A DNA stretch of 64,000 bases, from NCBI RefSeq assembly GCF_009208075.1, contig NZ_WFKJ01000005.1:1-64000 (forward strand). The letters are read 5' to 3'. A program made the position numbers and the translations under genes. Below, one piece after another: positions 19,948 to 29,953 of this stretch. The notes under the pieces were generated by a model that made no database searches, was not told the DNA's origin, and worked only from the letters and a program-made list of their open reading frames with translations. This DNA is from Poseidonibacter ostreae (lineage in GTDB: Bacteria; Campylobacterota; Campylobacteria; Campylobacterales; Arcobacteraceae). Each line of letters starts with the position of its first letter. The first letter of the stretch is position 1.

Positions 19948-20061
19948 AAAAAAGAGCTAATGCAAGAAATCCTTCCTCATAAAGAATAAGTTTTTCTATA
20001 TTTATTATTTTATAAAAGATTTATAATATAATCTCTATATTAATTATTAAGGAAATATTAA

Positions 20062-20457
20062 ATGAATCAAATAGAATTTTATGAAGCAAAATTAGCATAT
20101 GAAACAGACTCTTGGGATGTATTTGAAGCTTTAAATAATGGTGATAATAATCTTATTGTTATTGATGCAAGGGCAAAAGAAGCTTATTTAAAAGAACATA
20201 TTCCAAACTCTATAAATATTCCACATAAAACAATGAGTGAAGAGAGTACAAAAAATCTTGATAAAAATAAAATATATGTAAGTTACTGTGATGGAATAGG
20301 CTGTAATGCTTCAACTAAAGGGGCTTTAAATCTGTCAAAGTTAGGATTTAAAACAAAAGAGTTATTAGGAGGACTTGATTGGTGGAAAAGAGATGGTTAT
20401 GAAACTAGTGGGGTTAATGCTACAAAAGGAACAAATATCTCTTGTGGATGTAATTAA
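20062..20457 (+). CDS. Rhodanese-like domain protein
   Basis: 131 residues, a single rhodanese fold for sulfur (persulfide) transfer. The core reads VIDARAKEAYLKEHIPNSINIPH, and the active-site loop is SYCDGIGCNAST, with Cys at the expected place. A short tail follows and ends TNISCGCN, giving two further cysteines next to each other. It has its own TATAAT-like promoter and an AAGGAA ribosome site, and lies 5 bp before the AraC regulator gene, with which it is probably co-transcribed. Confidence 0.88.
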   Translation: MNQIEFYEAKLAYETDSWDVFEALNNGDNNLIVIDARAKEAYLKEHIPNSINIPHKTMSEESTKNLDKNKIYVSYCDGIGCNASTKGALNLSKLGFKTKELLGGLDWWKRDGYETSGVNATKGTNISCGCN

Positions 20458-20462
20458 AATCT

Positions 20463-21272
20463 ATGCATAAGACATTTACTAAAGTATTTATAGATGAAAG
20501 TCTTCCTTTTTTAGAGTTAAGATATTCAAATTCAAATGCTCACTATAAAAGACATTTTCATGATACTTTTTCAATAGGCGTAAATAAAGAGGGAAGAAGT
20601 ATTTATGAAAATAGTACTAAGTCATATACTTTAGATAAAAATATGCTAAGTATTATAAATCCTTTAGAAGTACATTCTTGTAACTCTTGTAGTGATGTTT
20701 TAAATATTTATTATATGTTATATTTAGATACTAAATGGTGTATGAATATTCAAAAACTTATAAACTGTGAAATAAAAGAGTTTGTAAAAATACCAATTCA
20801 TATATTAGAAGATGAAAGTTTTTACAAAGATTTTATAAGTTTATGTGAGTTTATTTTTCACGATAATTCTATTTTAGAAAAAGAAGATGAGTTAATAAAA
20901 TTTTTTCTTAATTTTTTCTCTTTATACTTAGAAAATAAAGAAGTAGAACTTGTAGATGCGAGGTTTCAAGAGATACTTTTATATTTAGATGAGAATTACA
21001 AAGAAAATATTTCACTAGATGAACTATCAAATAAATTTGAATTAAACTCTTTTTATATAATACGACTTTTTAAATCTCAGATGAATTTAACTCCACATTC
21101 CTACCTTTTAAATGTTAGAATTAATAAAGCAAAAGAGTATTTGAAAAATGGTTATTCGATTATTGATACTGCCTTAGAGTGTGGTTTTTTTGACCAAAGC
21201 CATTTTCATAAAAACTTTTTAAAAATAGTTGCAATTACTCCAAAAGAGTATAAAGTCAATTTTATACAATAA
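20463..21272 (+). CDS. AraC-family transcriptional regulator
   Basis: 269 residues. The N-terminal cupin-like sensor (about 1-160) has the HFHDTFSIGVNKEG metal/ligand region. Two C-terminal helix-turn-helices (about 170-267) include ISLDELSNKFELNSFYIIRLFK and DTALECGFFDQSHFHKNF. Position between the rhodanese gene and a LysE exporter suggests it activates the exporter, as AraC regulators with adjacent LysE genes often do. Confidence 0.88.
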   Translation: MHKTFTKVFIDESLPFLELRYSNSNAHYKRHFHDTFSIGVNKEGRSIYENSTKSYTLDKNMLSIINPLEVHSCNSCSDVLNIYYMLYLDTKWCMNIQKLINCEIKEFVKIPIHILEDESFYKDFISLCEFIFHDNSILEKEDELIKFFLNFFSLYLENKEVELVDARFQEILLYLDENYKENISLDELSNKFELNSFYIIRLFKSQMNLTPHSYLLNVRINKAKEYLKNGYSIIDTALECGFFDQSHFHKNFLKIVAITPKEYKVNFIQ

Positions 21273-21322
21273 GTTAACTTTCTATTTATATATAATTAGA
21301 CAAATATAAAGGAAACTTTCTT

Positions 21323-21919
21323 ATGACACTAACTATACTTTTTACAATGATATCTTTTTCTTTTGCTATGTCAATATCTCCAGGACCTGTTAATATGATG
21401 ATAATAACATCAGGAATTAATAATGGTTTTTCTAAAACTTTCTCATTTATATCTGGTGCAACAATAGGTTTTACTTTTTTATTGATAGTTATAGCCTTAG
21501 GGCTTAAAACTCTTTTAGATGAATATCCACTTTTCTTAGAGTATCTTGGCTATGTAGGCTCTTTATTTATTATATATATGGGATATAAAATTGCAAGTTC
21601 TACACCAAATATAGAACTTGAAAATAGTATGAAAAAATTAAAGTTTTATGAAGGCTTTTTACTTCAGTGGCTTAATCCAAAAGCATGGGCTGCTTGTATT
21701 TCAGGTGTTGCTATGTACTCTTTTAATGATTTTTTTTTACTGGTTTTTATTATTATATATTTTATAGTTTGTTATTTAAGTCTATCTTTTTGGGGATTAT
21801 TTGGACAAAAAGCTACTATGTTTTTAAATACAAATAAAAAGATAAAAAACTTTAATCTTTTTATGGGTTCTATTTTGATTATTTCAACACTAGTATTACT
21901 GTTTATAAATATTTTGTAG
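21323..21919 (+). CDS. LysE/RhtB-family amino acid exporter
   Basis: 198 residues, about six membrane helices, with the family start SISPGPVNMMIITSGINNGF and the central FLLQWLNPKAW motif. The family exports amino acids or related small molecules. An AAGGAAA ribosome site precedes the ATG. It follows the AraC regulator by 50 bp. Confidence 0.88.
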   Translation: MTLTILFTMISFSFAMSISPGPVNMMIITSGINNGFSKTFSFISGATIGFTFLLIVIALGLKTLLDEYPLFLEYLGYVGSLFIIYMGYKIASSTPNIELENSMKKLKFYEGFLLQWLNPKAWAACISGVAMYSFNDFFLLVFIIIYFIVCYLSLSFWGLFGQKATMFLNTNKKIKNFNLFMGSILIISTLVLLFINIL

Positions 21920-22008
21920 AAATTAGCATACAATTTATATAATTTGATATTCACATCTTTTAGCATTTATTCTATACTAGATAAATTAAAAAATATGAAG
22001 GAAAATTT

Positions 22009-23154
22009 ATGAGTTTAGTATATGATTATTCAAACCCAACAGCAATTCACTTTGGAAAAGGTCAAATTGCTTCAATAGTTAAGCATTTAAATAAAGATAA
22101 TAAAATATTAGTAGTTTATGGTGGCGGTTCAATTAAGAAAAATGGAGTATATGATGAAGTTTCATCTGTACTTGATGGTTTTAATTGGATTGAGTTTTCA
22201 GGAATTGAAGCAAATCCTTCTTATGAAACACTAAATAAAGCTGTTGCTTTAAGTAAAGCAGAAAAAATTGATTATATTTTAGCTGTTGGAGGAGGTTCTG
22301 TTATTGATGGAGCTAAATACATAGCAGCTGCTTCACTTTATGATGGTGATGCTTGGGATTTCCTTGATGGAAGTGTTACTGTAGAAAAAGCACTACCTCT
22401 TGGTGCTATTTTAACACTACCAGCAACGGGAAGTGAATCAAATGGAAACTCTGTTGTATCTAAAAAAGAGACAAATGAAAAAAGATTTTTTGCTTCACCT
22501 TTAGTTTATCCTGTATTTGCAGTTTTAGACCCAAGTGTTATGAGCACATTATCTGATAGACAATTAGCAAATGGTTTAGTAGATGCTTTTGTTCATACAT
22601 GTGAACAGTATTTAACTTGTCCAAATACTTCACTTCTTCATGATGGATATGCAGAAACAATTCTTAGAGGTTTATTATCTCTTGCACAAACTTGGGATAA
22701 TAGAAAAGATGCTATTTGGGAAGAAAACTTAATGCTTCTTGCAAACCAAGCTTTAAATGGTTTTATAGGTTCTGGTGTTACGCAAGATTGGGCAACACAT
22801 ATGATAGGACATGAATTAACAGGATTTTATGGAGTTGACCATGCTCAAAGTTTAGCAGTTGTTCAACCTCAATTACTAAGAGTAATGATGGAAGACAAAA
22901 AAGAAAAATTAGCTTTAATGGGTGAAAATGTTTTTGGAATCAAAGATGATAATGAAGCAGTTATTATTGCAATTGAAAAAATGTATGAAAGTGTTGGAGT
23001 TACAACAAATTTAAATGATTATGAAAATGTAGATGATAAAGTTATTGAAACAATAATTCCATCACTTAAAGCTCATGGAATGACAGCAATTGGTGAGAAT
23101 CAAAATATCACTCTTGAAGTCTCAGAAAAAATTCTTAAAATGGCTATGAAATAA
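22009..23154 (+). CDS. yqhD: Iron-containing alcohol dehydrogenase, YqhD/BdhA-like NADPH-dependent aldehyde reductase
   Basis: 381 residues. The nucleotide site is AVGGGSVIDGAKYIAAAS. The metal ligands lie in LVDAFVHTCEQYL (Asp and His) and MIGHELTGFYGVDHAQSL (two His). ATGSESNGNSVVS is typical of the YqhD subgroup. YqhD reduces toxic short-chain and dicarbonyl aldehydes with NADPH. A convergent AraC regulator and a DJ-1/Hsp31-like gene follow, consistent with a carbonyl-stress role; in E. coli the adjacent AraC protein YqhC controls yqhD. Confidence 0.9.
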   Translation: MSLVYDYSNPTAIHFGKGQIASIVKHLNKDNKILVVYGGGSIKKNGVYDEVSSVLDGFNWIEFSGIEANPSYETLNKAVALSKAEKIDYILAVGGGSVIDGAKYIAAASLYDGDAWDFLDGSVTVEKALPLGAILTLPATGSESNGNSVVSKKETNEKRFFASPLVYPVFAVLDPSVMSTLSDRQLANGLVDAFVHTCEQYLTCPNTSLLHDGYAETILRGLLSLAQTWDNRKDAIWEENLMLLANQALNGFIGSGVTQDWATHMIGHELTGFYGVDHAQSLAVVQPQLLRVMMEDKKEKLALMGENVFGIKDDNEAVIIAIEKMYESVGVTTNLNDYENVDDKVIETIIPSLKAHGMTAIGENQNITLEVSEKILKMAMK

Positions 23155-23171
23155 AACTATTTCTATAGTTT
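23154..23171. terminator. Weak hairpin between convergent yqhD and araC-type genes
   Basis: AAACTAT (23154-23160) pairs with ATAGTTT (23165-23171) across TTCT. The stem is all AT except one G-C pair, with a poor T-run, so termination is uncertain. Confidence 0.35.
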
Positions 23172-23177
23172 AAAAAA

Positions 23178-24053
23178 CTAAATAATCTCAAAAGAAGCTT
23201 TTGCTTCTTTGGGTGGATAGCCATAATAAGATTTAAAATCTTTAGAAAACTGTGAGCTACTCTCATATCCTGTTGCATAAGCAGTTTCATTTACTTGCAT
23301 ATCTCTTCTTGTTAATAAATCCATTGCTTTGTGTAATCGAATCTTTTTTATATATTGTAAAGGACTTAATGAAGTCACTTTTTTAAAGTGTGTATGAAAA
23401 GATGATACGCTCATGTCTTCTTCTTTTGCTAATCTTGGAATATCAAGATGCTCATTATATTCATGATGAATGGTTCTAAGTGACCTTATCATTTTAGCTT
23501 CTGCTTTATTTTCTAAAAACATTTTATGTAAAAAATGAGAGTTTTCACCAATTGCTATTTTATAAAAAATCTCTCTTAAAATAGACTCACCTAAGATATT
23601 TGATTCTTCTTTTGATTGAAGCATTTTTAAAAGTCTATAGATTGAATCTTCTAGTTCATTTGTAACTTTATCTTGAAATACACTTATTTGAACATCTTCA
23701 CATTTTTTTGATTCTTCTTTTGAAATTGAAGAGATTATTTCTTGCATTATCTCTTTTTTAATATCAATTAAAATACAAATATAAGGCTCTTCTTTAGATG
23801 CATAGGTTTCACACTCAAAAGGCATAGCAGTTGGAACTACAAGATAGTTTTTTGAATCATATTCAAATCGATTATTTGAAAGATAACCAATTTTTTTCCC
23901 TTGTAATACAAATACTAAGCAAAAATCATAAGTTAGAGGAGTTCTTGGAAGATAAGTAGTGGTTTTATAAAGATTAACACCTTTTATATTTGTTCTTGTT
24001 AAGGAGTCTTCTTTTATAAGTTTATTTACTTCTTCTAAGATTTTAGTGTTCAT
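23178..24053 (-). CDS. AraC-family regulator, YqhC-like
   Basis: 291 residues. The AraC_N-type sensor (about 20-180: LTYDFCLVFVLQGKKIGYL, YLVVPTAMPFECETYA) is followed by HTH_18 (about 195-290: LDIPRLAKEEDMSVSSFHTHFKKVTSLSPLQYIKKIRLHKA). This architecture matches E. coli YqhC, which senses aldehydes and activates yqhD. The gene is convergent with the yqhD-like gene and follows the Hsp31-type gene on the same strand. A GGAAG ribosome site precedes the ATG. Confidence 0.85.
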   Translation of the reverse strand: MNTKILEEVNKLIKEDSLTRTNIKGVNLYKTTTYLPRTPLTYDFCLVFVLQGKKIGYLSNNRFEYDSKNYLVVPTAMPFECETYASKEEPYICILIDIKKEIMQEIISSISKEESKKCEDVQISVFQDKVTNELEDSIYRLLKMLQSKEESNILGESILREIFYKIAIGENSHFLHKMFLENKAEAKMIRSLRTIHHEYNEHLDIPRLAKEEDMSVSSFHTHFKKVTSLSPLQYIKKIRLHKAMDLLTRRDMQVNETAYATGYESSSQFSKDFKSYYGYPPKEAKASFEII

Positions 24054-24100
24054 TGTACTTCCAAGTAGTTTTTATGCATTATACTAAAAAGAGTGTTATA

Positions 24101-24128
24101 AAAAGGGCAGAGTTTTTTTGCCCTTTTT
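24101..24128. terminator. Rho-independent terminator after the DJ-1/Hsp31-like gene
   Basis: AAAAGGGCA (24101-24109) pairs with TGCCCTTTT (24119-24127), with A- and T-runs on the two sides. On the minus strand it ends the DJ-1-type transcript. Confidence 0.85.
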
Positions 24129-24132
24129 TATT

Positions 24133-24810
24133 TTAAGAAAGTAGTTTTAGTAGTTCTTTTGCTACAGCTTGCGATGAAGCTGGGTTTTGTCCTGTAATAA
24201 GTTTACCATCAGTAATCGCATATGAATTCCAGTCATCTACTTTTGAGTAGTTTGCACCTTTAGAGATTAGTTCATCTTCAAGTAAGAATGGAACAACATT
24301 TGTTAATTGAACTGCTTCTTCTTCAGTATTACTAAAAGCAGTAAGATTTTTACCTTTTACTAGATAGTCTCCATTTTCTAATTTTACATTTACTAAAACA
24401 GAAGGGGCATGACATACTGAAGCTACTGGTTTATTTGCTTTTACAAAGGCTTGGATTAAAGATATTGAGTCTTTATCATTTGTTAAATCCCATAAAGGAC
24501 CATGGCCACCTGGATACATAATCGCATCAAAATCTTCTTCTTTTACGCTTGATAGTTTTACAGTATTTGCTAGTGCTTCATTTCCTTTTGCATCTTCTTT
24601 AAATCTATTTGTAGCTTCTGTATGAAAATCAGGTGCATCACTATTTGGATCAAGTGGTGGTAATCCACCTTTTGGAGATGCTAGTGTAATACTTGCTCCT
24701 GCATCAAGAAGTGTGTAGTATGGTGAAGCAAACTCTTCTAACCAAAATCCAGTTTTATGTTCTGTGTCGCCTAATTTATCATGTGAAGTAAGTACTATAA
24801 GAATATTCAT
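24133..24810 (-). CDS. DJ-1/PfpI/Hsp31-type protein (possible glyoxalase III)
   Basis: 225 residues, one DJ-1/PfpI domain. The nucleophile elbow is SVCHAPSVLV with Cys133-His134, the acidic partner is E25 in GFWLEEFASPYY, and the glycine-rich turn is MYPGGHGPLWDL. Proteins of this group act on methylglyoxal or protect proteins from carbonyl damage. Beside a YqhD-type reductase and a YqhC-type regulator it completes a plausible aldehyde-defence set. It has an AAAGGAA ribosome site and a likely -10 TATAAT around 24840-24845 on the minus strand. Confidence 0.88.
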   Translation of the reverse strand: MNILIVLTSHDKLGDTEHKTGFWLEEFASPYYTLLDAGASITLASPKGGLPPLDPNSDAPDFHTEATNRFKEDAKGNEALANTVKLSSVKEEDFDAIMYPGGHGPLWDLTNDKDSISLIQAFVKANKPVASVCHAPSVLVNVKLENGDYLVKGKNLTAFSNTEEEAVQLTNVVPFLLEDELISKGANYSKVDDWNSYAITDGKLITGQNPASSQAVAKELLKLLS

Positions 24811-24934
24811 ATTTTTCCTTTAATTATTTTAATTTGAGATATTATAGGGGATTGTTAAAAGTATATGAATGGTTAATTCTATAAATTATATGTAAATTTC
24901 TACAAAATCGAATTTTTTTAAGGGATTAAATAAT

Positions 24935-25018
24935 ATTCCTAAGTTTTAATTTAAGGAGAAAGGGGAGTCAATGAGTGTTGACCTACTTAGGAATACAAAA
25001 AAGTCGAACTTTTTATAA
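24935..25018 (+). ncRNA. Structured intergenic element with a 15-residue ORF; candidate small RNA or leader
   Basis: The gap between the DJ-1 gene and the CNNM gene holds nested symmetry. A 10-bp outer stem ATTCCTAAGT (24935-24944)/ACTTAGGAAT (24985-24994) encloses an inner hairpin GTCAA (24967-24971)/TTGAC (24978-24982). AAAAAGT-CGA-ACTTTTT follows at about 25000-25016. Between the stems run AAGGAG (24953-24958) and GGGGAG (24962-24967), then ATG at 24971 opening MSVDLLRNTKKSNFL and stopping at 25018. The GC-rich purine block stands out in this AT-rich genome. No class recognised. It could be a regulated small-peptide mRNA, an sRNA or a palindromic repeat unit. Confidence 0.45.
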
Positions 25019-25033
25019 GAGAAGTATAATTGA

Positions 25034-25080
25034 AAAAAATAGCAAAATAATCGAATAAAATTAAAGATTATTGGCTTTTT
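25034..25080. terminator. Probable bidirectional terminator beside the structured element and CNNM gene
   Basis: AATAATC pairs with GATTATT about 13 bases later, with partially paired AGC/GCT ends and a run of T residues on the plus strand and on the minus strand. It could end the plus-strand structured transcript and the minus-strand CNNM gene. Confidence 0.5.
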
Positions 25081-26127
25081 TTAATTTTTTGTTTTTACTC
25101 GTCTAATCTCTTTCATTTTAGTCCTTGCAACTTCTCTCATATCAATATTGGTATCAAGCTCATCAACAATTTCAACACCTAAAAGTGTTTCAACGGCATC
25201 TTCAAGGGTTACAACACCTTTTGTTTGTTCATAATTATCAACTACAATAAACATATGTTCTTTTTTGATTAAGAAAAGGTCTATAAGTTTAGAAATAGGA
25301 ATATTCTCGTTTACACTAAAAATAGGCTTTATTATCTTTTCTTTATTTTCTATATTATTTTCAATATACTCGTAAAAATACTCTTTTGAAATAACAACTC
25401 CAATAATATCATCAATACTTTCTTTATAAACAGGAACCCTTGAGTACTCTTTAAATTTCTCTAAATCTAAAATCTTGTGAGTTTTAAAACTATTAATTAA
25501 ATCATCTTTTTGTACAGAAAAAAGTACACTTCTTGGTGTAAATATATCTCTAACTTTTATTTCATTTAATTGTAAAAGATTTTCAATTACACCACTTTCT
25601 TTTTCTCTTAAAATCCCACTTTCTTCTGCTATATTTGCAGTTGCTATGATTTCTTCTTTTGTTATTGTCTCTTTATCTGTAGGAGTTATATAGTTCGTGA
25701 TTTTATTTAAAATAATAAGTAAAGGGTAAGTTACAAAGATTAAAATTTTTATAGTTCTTGTTGAAAACCCAGATAAACTTCTCCAATAATATGCTCCTAA
25801 TGTTTTTGGAATAATCTCAGAAAAAACTAGAATTAAAAGTGTAAGAATTGCAGAGATATGAAACATATAATCTTCACCAAACATTTTAGCTGCTTCACTA
25901 CCAACGCCAGCAGCACCTAATGTGTGAGCAAAAGTATTTAGAGTTAAAATTGCTGCAATAGAATAATCAATATTTTTCTTCTGTTTTTGCATTTCATTAC
26001 CAAGCTTATTATTCTTTTGTTTAGTAAGCTTTATATGAGAAGCACTAATTGATAAGAGAACTGCTTCAAGTATGGAGCATAAAAAGGAGACGCCAACGGC
26101 TATTAGAAAGTAAGTAAGTATTAGCAT
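25081..26127 (-). CDS. CNNM/CBS-domain transporter-like protein (HlyC/CorC family)
   Basis: 348 residues. The N-terminal CNNM (DUF21) membrane domain of about four helices (1-140) includes FLCSILEAVLLS and a conserved ILTLNTFAHTLGAAGVGSEA region. A CBS pair (about 190-320) follows with VRDIFTPRSVLFSV and IVVDNYEQTKGVVTLEDAVETLLG. The family is tied to magnesium and sodium homeostasis. The C-terminal CorC_HlyC domain of longer members is absent; the protein ends soon after the second CBS in a basic tail. An AGGAC ribosome site precedes the ATG. Confidence 0.88.
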   Translation of the reverse strand: MLILTYFLIAVGVSFLCSILEAVLLSISASHIKLTKQKNNKLGNEMQKQKKNIDYSIAAILTLNTFAHTLGAAGVGSEAAKMFGEDYMFHISAILTLLILVFSEIIPKTLGAYYWRSLSGFSTRTIKILIFVTYPLLIILNKITNYITPTDKETITKEEIIATANIAEESGILREKESGVIENLLQLNEIKVRDIFTPRSVLFSVQKDDLINSFKTHKILDLEKFKEYSRVPVYKESIDDIIGVVISKEYFYEYIENNIENKEKIIKPIFSVNENIPISKLIDLFLIKKEHMFIVVDNYEQTKGVVTLEDAVETLLGVEIVDELDTNIDMREVARTKMKEIRRVKTKN

Positions 26128-26268
26128 TTAAAGTCCTGTAAAATATTTTATATAAAAACTATGATAAAAGCATATCAAAAAAATATAAGAAAGTTTAGAT
26201 TTATCGATTATTTTGCTCTTTTTTATAGTTACACTTCTTTCATAATTAATCCAAGTTAAGGAAAAGAA

Positions 26269-28677
26269 ATGAAAATTGAAAGAAGAAATTTTTTAAAAAA
26301 AGGTGCAATAGGGACAGCTGTTATTGCTGCTAGTACTACAATAAGTGGTGCTGCTGCAAATATTATGGAATCAAGAACTAAAAAAATTCCAAGTGCTTCT
26401 CACTTTGGACCTTTTTATGCTCATGTAAGAGATGATAAAATTATTGATATCACTTCACAATTAGATTCAGATGCAAACCCAACAGTAATTGTAAAAGGTT
26501 TAGCCGATAGAAATACTTCAAACTCAAGAGTTAAATATCCAGTAGTAAGAAAGTCTTACTTAGAAGGAAAAGGTCGAGGCGATTTAAGAGGTAAAGAAGA
26601 GTTTGTTAGAGTTTCATGGGAAACAGCACTTGATTTAGCTGCAGATGCAATTAAAAGAGCACAGAAAAAAGGTGGTAATGAAGCACTCTACAACGCATCT
26701 TATGGTGGTTGGTCTATTCCAGGAGCTTTTAAACCAAATGTTTTAGCTGGAAGATTCTTTAACCAAATTGGTGGAGCTGTTGGAACTGCTGGTGAGTATT
26801 CAAATGGTGCTGCTGGTCCTGTAAACCCAGGAGTTGTTGGGGATATGGAAGTTTATTCTATTCAAACTGCACATGAGCAAATTATCAAACATACTGAAGT
26901 TATGGTTTTATGGGGAGCTGATTTATACAAAACTAATAGAGCAGGTTATTCAGTACCAAATCACAGATGTTATGATGCTTATGAAGAGTACAAAAAAGCT
27001 GGTATGAAAGTAATTCTAATTGACCCTATTTATAATTCATCTGGACAAGAGTTTAAAGCTGATTGGATTAAAATTAGACCAGGTTCTGATGTTGCAATGA
27101 TGATGGCAATGATGCATCATTTATATAAAACTGGTAAATATGATAAAGCATTTATTGAAAAATATACTCATGGATTTGATAAGTTTTTACCATATCTTTT
27201 AGGAAAAACAGATGGAATTCCTAAAACTGCAAAATGGGCTGAAAAATTAACAGAAGTACCTGCTAAAACAATTGAGCAATTAGCTGAATTAATGGTTTCT
27301 AAAAGAACTATGATTGCAGGAAACTGGGCAATGCAAAGAGCAGCACACGGTGAACAAGTTGATTGGTCTATAATTACTTTAGCTTCGATGCTTGGACAAA
27401 TTGGATTACCAGGTGGTGGTTTTGGTTTCTCTATGCATTATGAAGGTGGTGGTGATGCTGCATCTGGAAAAAGAACTGTTGGTGGATTAAGTCAAGGAAA
27501 AGGTGGTGCGGTAACTCTTACTATTCCAGCTTCAAGAATGAGTGATTTAATTAATAAACCAGGTGAAACTGTTACTTATAAAGGTAAAACTATTAAGTAT
27601 CCAAAAGTTGAGTTTATGTTAAGTGCAGGTGGTTCACCAATTGGACATCAACCAAATGTAAATGAGCTAATAAAAGCTATGAGAACATTAGATACTGTTG
27701 TTGTTATAGAACCATGGTGGACACCAACTGCTAAAATGGCAGATATTGTTTTTCCTGCAACTACAACTTTAGAAAGAGATGATATTGCTTCTGGTATGTC
27801 GTATTCAAATGATAGAATTTTTGCAATGAGAAAAGTAGTTGATGCTAGATATGAGTCAAAAGATGATTATGAAATCTTTACTGAATTAGCAAAAAGGTTT
27901 GGAACTGAAAAAAGATTTACAAGAGATAGAACGCCTATGCAATGGATTCAAAGATTATACAAAAGATCTTATGCAAATAAAGTAATGAAAATTGCTTTTG
28001 AAGATTTCTGGGAAAAAGGAAGTGTTCATTATGATATTCCTGATGAAGCTAGAAAATATGTTAGACATGAAGCGTTTAGAAAAGACCCTGTAGCAAATGC
28101 ACTTAAAACAGAAACTGGGAAAATTCAAATTTTTTCTGAAAAGTTTGAAAGTTATAAATATAAAGACTTTAAAGGTCATCCAATATGGATGGAGCCAGAA
28201 GAGTGGTTAGGGAATAAAGAATTAGCAAAAAAATATCCATTACACTTAGTATCACCACATCCAAAATTTAGAATCCATACACAAATGGATAATACTTGGG
28301 TACAAAATGTGCATAAAGTACAAGGCAGAGAGCCAATTAGAATTTCTCCAAATGATGCTAAAAAATTTGGTGTAAAAGATGGCGAGATTGTAGAGGTATA
28401 TAATAATAGAGGGAGTATTTTAGCAGGTGTAGTAGTTACAAATACTATTAGAGATGGTGTTGCAGCAATTGAGGAAGGGGCTTGGTATTCTCCTGAAGAT
28501 AGTTCAAAAGAGAATTCAAGATGTAATTCTGGACAAGTTAATGTATTAACTTCATCAAGACCAACATCTCAAATGGCAAATGCAACAACAGTAAACTCAA
28601 CACTAGTTTCAATTAAAAAAGTGGATGTTGTTTCTCCAAATGTGGCATATAATCCACCAAAAATTCAAGGAGCTTAA
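26269..28677 (+). CDS. torA: Trimethylamine-N-oxide reductase, TorA-type molybdoenzyme
   Basis: 802-residue periplasmic molybdopterin enzyme of the DMSO/TMAO reductase family. A twin-arginine signal (ERRNFLKKGAIGTAVIAAS) directs export of the folded enzyme. The molybdenum ligand is Ser149 in NASYGGWSIPG. No N-terminal iron-sulfur motif is present, as expected for TorA. WGADLYKTNRAGY, ERDDIASGMSYSNDRI and RIHTQMDNTWVQNVHKVQGREP are family blocks. The monohaem cytochrome gene starts 2 bp after the stop. Relatives such as BisC or DmsA are less likely given the cytochrome partner and regulator genes. Confidence 0.92.
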   Translation: MKIERRNFLKKGAIGTAVIAASTTISGAAANIMESRTKKIPSASHFGPFYAHVRDDKIIDITSQLDSDANPTVIVKGLADRNTSNSRVKYPVVRKSYLEGKGRGDLRGKEEFVRVSWETALDLAADAIKRAQKKGGNEALYNASYGGWSIPGAFKPNVLAGRFFNQIGGAVGTAGEYSNGAAGPVNPGVVGDMEVYSIQTAHEQIIKHTEVMVLWGADLYKTNRAGYSVPNHRCYDAYEEYKKAGMKVILIDPIYNSSGQEFKADWIKIRPGSDVAMMMAMMHHLYKTGKYDKAFIEKYTHGFDKFLPYLLGKTDGIPKTAKWAEKLTEVPAKTIEQLAELMVSKRTMIAGNWAMQRAAHGEQVDWSIITLASMLGQIGLPGGGFGFSMHYEGGGDAASGKRTVGGLSQGKGGAVTLTIPASRMSDLINKPGETVTYKGKTIKYPKVEFMLSAGGSPIGHQPNVNELIKAMRTLDTVVVIEPWWTPTAKMADIVFPATTTLERDDIASGMSYSNDRIFAMRKVVDARYESKDDYEIFTELAKRFGTEKRFTRDRTPMQWIQRLYKRSYANKVMKIAFEDFWEKGSVHYDIPDEARKYVRHEAFRKDPVANALKTETGKIQIFSEKFESYKYKDFKGHPIWMEPEEWLGNKELAKKYPLHLVSPHPKFRIHTQMDNTWVQNVHKVQGREPIRISPNDAKKFGVKDGEIVEVYNNRGSILAGVVVTNTIRDGVAAIEEGAWYSPEDSSKENSRCNSGQVNVLTSSRPTSQMANATTVNSTLVSIKKVDVVSPNVAYNPPKIQGA

Positions 28678-29266: not shown

Positions 29267-29953
29267 ATGAAAAAAGATGTACTTGAAAAATTACAAAACT
29301 TGACTCTTCTTTATGCTGAAGATGAGGTAGGAATTAGAGAAAATATTGCAGATTCTCTACGATACTATGTAAAAGAAGTTTATGAAGCAAATGATGGAGA
29401 GGAAGGATATGAATTATATCTTGAAAAAACTCCTGATATTATATTAAGTGATATTCATATGCCAAATGTAAATGGTATTGAATTTATAAAAAAAGTTAGA
29501 CAAATAGATAAAAATATTCCAGTTGTTATGATAACTGCTCATACAGATAAAGAGTATTTACTTGAAGCAGTTGAATTACATATGGAAAAATATATTGTAA
29601 AACCTCTTGATTTAGATGAGTTATTTGAATCTTTAGATAAATGTATAACCCTGCTAGACTCAAATAGAAAAGTTATATTAAAAGTTGATAAAGATTATGT
29701 TTATGATTATGATTTAAAAGAATTAAAATATAAAGACGAAAGTATTATTTTAAATAAAAAAGAGATGACTTTTTTAGAAGTGCTAATCTCTAATCAGAAT
29801 AGAATTGTAAATTATGAAGAGTTACAAGATAAAGTTTGGGGTGATGATATTATGACAGATAGTGCATTACGCTCACTTGTAAGAAATTTACGAAAAAAAC
29901 TTCCTACGGATTTACTTTTTAATTTATCCGGAGTAGGATATAGACTTGTATAA
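29267..29953 (+). CDS. OmpR-family response regulator of the tor operon
   Basis: 228 residues: receiver domain (about 1-125) with acidic pocket EDE and phospho-acceptor Asp62 in LSDIHMPN, conserved Lys in IVKPLDL, then a winged-helix DNA-binding domain (about 135-228, NKKEMTFLEVLISNQNRIVNYEEL...VRNLRKKLP). Preceded by AAGGAGAG, and follows the cytochrome gene by 32 bp. With the next two genes it forms a likely sensor system for TMAO or a related signal, controlling torA. Confidence 0.9.
   Translation: MKKDVLEKLQNLTLLYAEDEVGIRENIADSLRYYVKEVYEANDGEEGYELYLEKTPDIILSDIHMPNVNGIEFIKKVRQIDKNIPVVMITAHTDKEYLLEAVELHMEKYIVKPLDLDELFESLDKCITLLDSNRKVILKVDKDYVYDYDLKELKYKDESIILNKKEMTFLEVLISNQNRIVNYEELQDKVWGDDIMTDSALRSLVRNLRKKLPTDLLFNLSGVGYRLV

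Follow-up and report, generated by a model that had tools for sequence, protein, structure and literature searches.

A probable minus-strand small RNA gene with a torA-type promoter block in Poseidonibacter ostreae and its relatives

The Locus and Its Hairpin

The window analysed here is a stretch of 64,000 nucleotides from Poseidonibacter ostreae (contig NZ_WFKJ01000005.1). The element of interest lies in one of its intergenic gaps, among the following genes:

24133-24810, minus: DJ-1/PfpI-family gene
24811-25080: intergenic gap between the DJ-1/PfpI-family gene and the CNNM/CBS-domain gene
25081-26127, minus: CNNM/CBS-domain gene
26269-28677, plus: torA/bisC-type S/N-oxide reductase gene (TIGR00509 and TorA models, all below curated cut-offs)
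29267-29953, plus: OmpR-type response regulator, a candidate regulator of the box described below by virtue of its position only

Downstream of the torA-like gene there are a short gene weakly similar to TorC, the gene of the OmpR-type response regulator and one for a solute-binding protein. In what follows, G000 is the window's own genome, G004 is a congener, and G063, G074 and G076 belong to a second genus, g10. Aldehyde-type genes (a yqhD-like alcohol dehydrogenase, DJ-1/PfpI and AraC regulators) are grouped beside torA, at 20000-25000 of the window. In the window, the yqhD-type alcohol dehydrogenase gene is about 1.8 kb off; in G063 and G076 it is oriented towards the hairpin. Genome G001 has a pair of CNNM genes in differing surroundings, with 92% and 90% identity to that of the window, of which one alone adjoins torA (L031, L038).

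Within the gap, a nested hairpin spans 24934-24995. The original prediction had described this region as a plus-strand element, and every sequence piece that it described can be found there. The closing stem exists, although it is not 10 bp long as had been stated but 11 bp (24934-24944/24985-24995), plus one wobble pair available on the minus strand. An inner hairpin (24967-24972/24977-24982) does cover the A of an ATG at 24971; the two Shine-Dalgarno-like blocks are AAGGAG at 24953-24958 and GGGGAG at 24962-24967, and the U-rich hairpin is an A/U hairpin, AAAAAGT-CGA-ACTTTTT, immediately after the stem. The short ORF is also present. A possible terminator had been suggested as well, but no intrinsic terminator is called in the gap by the scanner's rule.

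24985-24996, minus: 5′ arm of the closing stem, pairing with 24933-24944
24933-24944, minus: 3′ arm of the closing stem, whose 12 pairs are all conserved, two of them with both partners changed
24967-24982, no strand assigned: inner hairpin GTCAAT/GTTGAC, found in G000 and G004 only
24971-25018, plus: micro-ORF MSVDLLRNTKKSNFL, judged incidental since its start codon and frame are not conserved

Fold significance was measured against 200 dinucleotide shuffles. The fold beats nearly all of them, more clearly on the minus strand than on the plus strand: the 182-nt region gives z -2.5 on the plus strand (5/200 shuffles as good) and -3.2 on the minus strand (1/200), and the 63-nt core gives -2.2 (6/200) and -2.8 (1/200), respectively.

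Homologs and Distribution

The gap is single-copy in its own genome, and a dispersed repeat is rejected on this ground. It has one syntenic relative, in G004, and no copy in 102 other genomes of the family. The exact DNA pattern, searched across all genome contigs, matched solely the contig of G004, and no plasmid or phage match was found for the element, so a plasmid or phage origin is rejected. The single copy and the absence elsewhere exclude a mobile palindromic unit. G003 has the same CNNM and DJ-1 neighbours and lacks the element. Between G000 and G004 the core is 91% identical and the nearby intergenic DNA 81%; since 586 of 1746 nearby intergenic windows reach an identity as high as that of the core, this pair alone is little proof.

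In transposons of the IS200/IS605 type, leader hairpins cover the start of the transposase. The layout observed here resembles this, as a lead only, and the gap of G003 without the element would also fit the remnant of such a transposon end. However, no Y1 transposase occurs in G000 or G004, the multicopy family of G030 has an unlike leader and the element is single-copy; a transposon remnant is largely refuted and barely credible. More than 10 near-identical IS200-type transposase genes were noticed in G030 (L048).

The original prediction had also called for a covariance search, and this found homologs in three g10 genomes. A two-sequence covariance model (G000 and G004) matched G063 and G076 at E about 1e-4, and a four-sequence model added G074 (E 1.9e-7). 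Nothing else convincing appeared among the 104 family genomes with the four-sequence model, or among the 399 genomes of the order with the first, two-sequence model alone; covariance matches beyond the five sequences had E above 0.03 and were judged to be chance. Eight near-identical weak matches to the second RNA model in G030 (24.7 bits) were read as chance similarity to another repeat.

By sequence, the element belongs to no Rfam family. Rfam has no match for it, which agrees with the earlier statement that no known riboswitch fits; near the homologs, Rfam gives nothing above chance level. The sole Rfam match in the window is a TPP riboswitch at 191-296 on the minus strand (67.2 bits, above the Rfam gathering score).

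Strand and Conserved Loop

Aligned across four sequences, the closing stem of twelve pairs has no unpaired cell, and two of its pairs are doubly changed (U-A to C-G). Both stem arms of G074 differ in length from those of the others, yet they pair fully. When the five homologs are counted with hand-set arms, the minus strand keeps 60 of 60 pairs (57 Watson-Crick pairs and 3 wobbles, no mismatch), while the three wobbles turn into mismatches on the plus strand. The inner hairpin of G000 and G004 counts against a minus-strand reading, as its wobbles are legal on the plus strand. Conserved structure with compensatory change in relatives, a property expected of a trans-acting sRNA, is present, albeit in five homologs only. 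On the minus strand the loop contains the anti-Shine-Dalgarno UCUCCU in all five homologs and UCUCCUnAAAUU in four of the five:

24948-24959, minus: loop motif UCUCCUUAAAUU, conserved and complementary to Shine-Dalgarno sequences

The original prediction had read the element as a plus-strand mRNA in which a sequestered start codon switches the translation of a regulated micro-peptide. A good ribosome site and an ATG do exist in G000 and G004, and within codons 1-8 there is a single change, which is synonymous and preserves the pairing on the plus strand. However, the plus-strand loops of G063, G074 and G076 have no ATG, so that the start codon is missing in three of the five homologs, and the frame of G004 breaks after codon 8, directly beyond the stem. 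No plus-strand promoter is called, and the wobbles of the closing stem favour the minus strand. We regard a regulated micro-peptide as very improbable. Another of the options raised, an sRNA, fares better, but on the opposite strand:

24927-25005, minus: proposed small RNA, from its covariance homologs (G004, G063, G074, G076) and the minus-strand fold

The ends of this RNA are approximate, the start being placed from a -10-like hexamer and the end from the U-rich tail. In G000 the stem is followed by a tail without a strong U-run, which counts against the sRNA reading.

Promoter Block and Regulatory Box

Positions 25013-25054, read on the minus strand, match 36 of 42 positions of 26204-26245 before torA and are oriented into the hairpin. 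This torA-like upstream block of the hairpin covers 25056-25012 on the minus strand and includes the following features, listed with the torA counterpart of the box:

25034-25055, minus: regulatory box TTCGATTATTTTGCTATTTTTT, upstream of the RNA
26203-26224, plus: matching box ATCGATTATTTTGCTCTTTTTT, upstream of torA
25012-25017, minus: -10-like hexamer TATAAA of the proposed RNA promoter, aligned with CATAAT/TATAAT of torA upstream regions

Set against the regions upstream of torA from seven genomes, the block retains the TTCGATTATTTTGCT box, a T-tract, a GTTA..CTTC stretch and a -10-like (C/T)ATAA. With 0-1 mismatch allowed, the box is confined, in G000 and G004, to the regions ahead of torA and of the hairpin. 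G063 has it before torA and, facing the opposite way, before an Opr-family porin gene; the arrangement in G074 is the same, with a weaker porin copy. The porin gene is divergent from torA in both genomes, and the hairpin follows directly after its stop codon on the same strand. In G076 the block lies directly before the hairpin, with the box one base shorter. A putative torA-type promoter block is seen to read into the RNA in G000, G004 and G076, and because the block is either immediately upstream or one porin gene away, a similar type of promoter would lie upstream in every case. We propose that the torA-like gene is co-regulated with the RNA. The box TTCGATTATTTTGCT has the appearance of a tiny dedicated regulon made of torA, the Opr porin and the RNA. 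Two box copies facing outward are found in the torA/porin gap of G063 (L148/L156). A leftover of a lost gene, also among the options first raised, gains a little substance in that the hairpin of G063 and G074 sits behind a porin gene that is missing at the window's locus.

The same promoter could be taken to serve the DJ-1-type gene, with the hairpin as a cis-acting 5′ leader on the minus strand, as this gene lies about 120 bp after the hairpin on the same strand in G000 and G004. However, DJ-1 has a promoter-like site of its own (24869-24841), the hairpin of G063 and G076 is followed by yqhD, on the opposite strand, and G003 has DJ-1 without the element. Such a leader seems improbable.

The hairpin is found where genes end: it comes after the CNNM gene, the Opr porin gene or a kinase gene, and in G063 and G076 yqhD faces it. 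Its stem is also nearly symmetric on both strands. These traits would suit a bidirectional terminator between neighbouring genes, with no trans role and with a loop that is alike by common descent only. Terminators rarely have loops of about 28-40 nt, though, and here the anti-Shine-Dalgarno motif in the loop is kept while the stem changes. Moreover, a regulated promoter is predicted to point into the hairpin in three genomes, and the scanner calls no terminator at the hairpin. We consider a plain terminator unlikely, if still worth some weight.

Candidate Target

When the complement of the loop motif was searched in the five genomes, the sole gene common to several of them was that of the major outer-membrane protein, the porin MOMP (PF05538), with the leader TTTCGAAATTTTAGGAGAACAAATG. 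Each g10 loop is complementary to the MOMP leader of its own genome at the ribosome site, over 15 contiguous bases in G063 (0 of 2000 shuffles), 14 in G074 (3 of 2000) and 14 with one G-U in G076 (7 of 2000); the shuffles kept the UCUCCU core and randomised the loop outside it. With the G063 loop and 484 gene starts, the MOMP leaders alone reach -20.5 kcal/mol, and ranks from these control starts are conservative since the set is enriched in Shine-Dalgarno-like matches. These pairing statistics should be taken as about one independent event, because the three g10 cases share descent and genomes in which no RNA was detected have a MOMP leader that is just as conserved.

For G000 and G004, pairing of the loop with MOMP is no better than in shuffles. 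Matches of TAAGGAGAAAG and AAATTTNAGGAGA at start codons in the window's own genome are few, and none is common to G000 and G004. One binding-protein-like gene of G000 (L186), with 14 matching bases, was discarded as a target as it has no support from G004.

The untranslated leaders of MOMP are themselves strikingly conserved across both genera, with GAGTTCGCGCGCTCCGA..AGACTGAAA..TTTCGAAATTTTAGGAGAA (e.g., L187 1420-1522, L203, L205). Their TGTCGGA/TCCGACA could pair as a long-range stem, and the leader may itself be structured or regulatory.

Proposed Model

We hypothesize that the element is probably a minus-strand small-RNA gene, co-regulated with torA and acting in a MicC-like way on outer-membrane protein mRNAs. 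The torA-type promoter (25056-25012) would start a transcript of about 75-80 nt, running from about 25005 down to 24927, which would fold as one long hairpin with a U-rich tail and hold the C/U-rich anti-Shine-Dalgarno UCUCCU in its large loop. An activator, most simply the response regulator of the torA operon, may bind the TTCGATTATTTTGCT box and switch on torA and the RNA together; TMAO would be the signal, the enzyme fitting TorA/BisC models below their cut-offs. The RNA would then pair with the ribosome sites of target mRNAs and block their translation. In g10 the best-supported target would be the MOMP mRNA, such that the Opr porin, which has the same box and the RNA at its 3′ end, goes up while MOMP goes down. 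In the window's species the Opr gene is absent from the locus, and the RNA would stand alone behind the box.

It is possible, although we suggest this only tentatively, that these parts make up a circuit by which Arcobacteraceae-type bacteria exchange porins. A single regulator for S/N-oxide respiration would turn on torA, a dedicated Opr porin and a MOMP-silencing sRNA, the latter produced at the porin 3′ end or by a promoter copy of its own; the window's lineage would carry it as a stand-alone gene, lacking the porin and with a changed target. If the small-RNA reading is right, the element would be a new regulatory RNA family linking anaerobic S/N-oxide respiration to outer-membrane porin choice, and MicC-like logic would be found in a phylum with few sRNA circuits worked out.

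Comparison with Known Small RNAs

The terminator loop of RepG from Helicobacter pylori is C/U-rich. RepG (PMC8295292) and NikS (PMC8035401) are trans-acting sRNAs of the same phylum, and RepG acts on an mRNA leader, at a G-repeat in the tlpB leader (PMC8295292). The proposed RNA would be alike in being a trans-acting sRNA of this phylum with a target in an mRNA leader, but the target of RepG is the tlpB G-repeat and not a Shine-Dalgarno sequence. No sequence relation between the element and RepG or NikS was seen, and no comparable RNA in this bacterial family was found in open-access literature text.

In E. coli, MicC is encoded next to ompN, a quiescent porin gene, and modulates OmpC, the major porin (PMC5745476). 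The likeness lies in an sRNA beside a minor porin gene, with common regulation of the pair proposed, and in base pairing to a major porin's mRNA leader (predicted here for G063, G074 and G076). On the other hand, there is no sequence relation between MicC and the element, which has no Rfam match, and the RNA here lies on the strand of the porin and downstream of it, or stands alone. The promoter box is common to torA, in contrast to sigma-E-linked control, and the effect on MOMP is a prediction only.

Small RNAs from mRNA 3′ ends are a reviewed class (PMC9438474), of which CpxQ is an example (PMC4817254). The RNA of G063 and G074 is predicted to be the 3′ end of the Opr porin mRNA and would resemble this class, whereas G000, G004 and G076 have their own promoter block and no porin in front. 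If our reading is true, these genomes offer a natural comparison between the 3′-end-derived and the stand-alone version of one sRNA.
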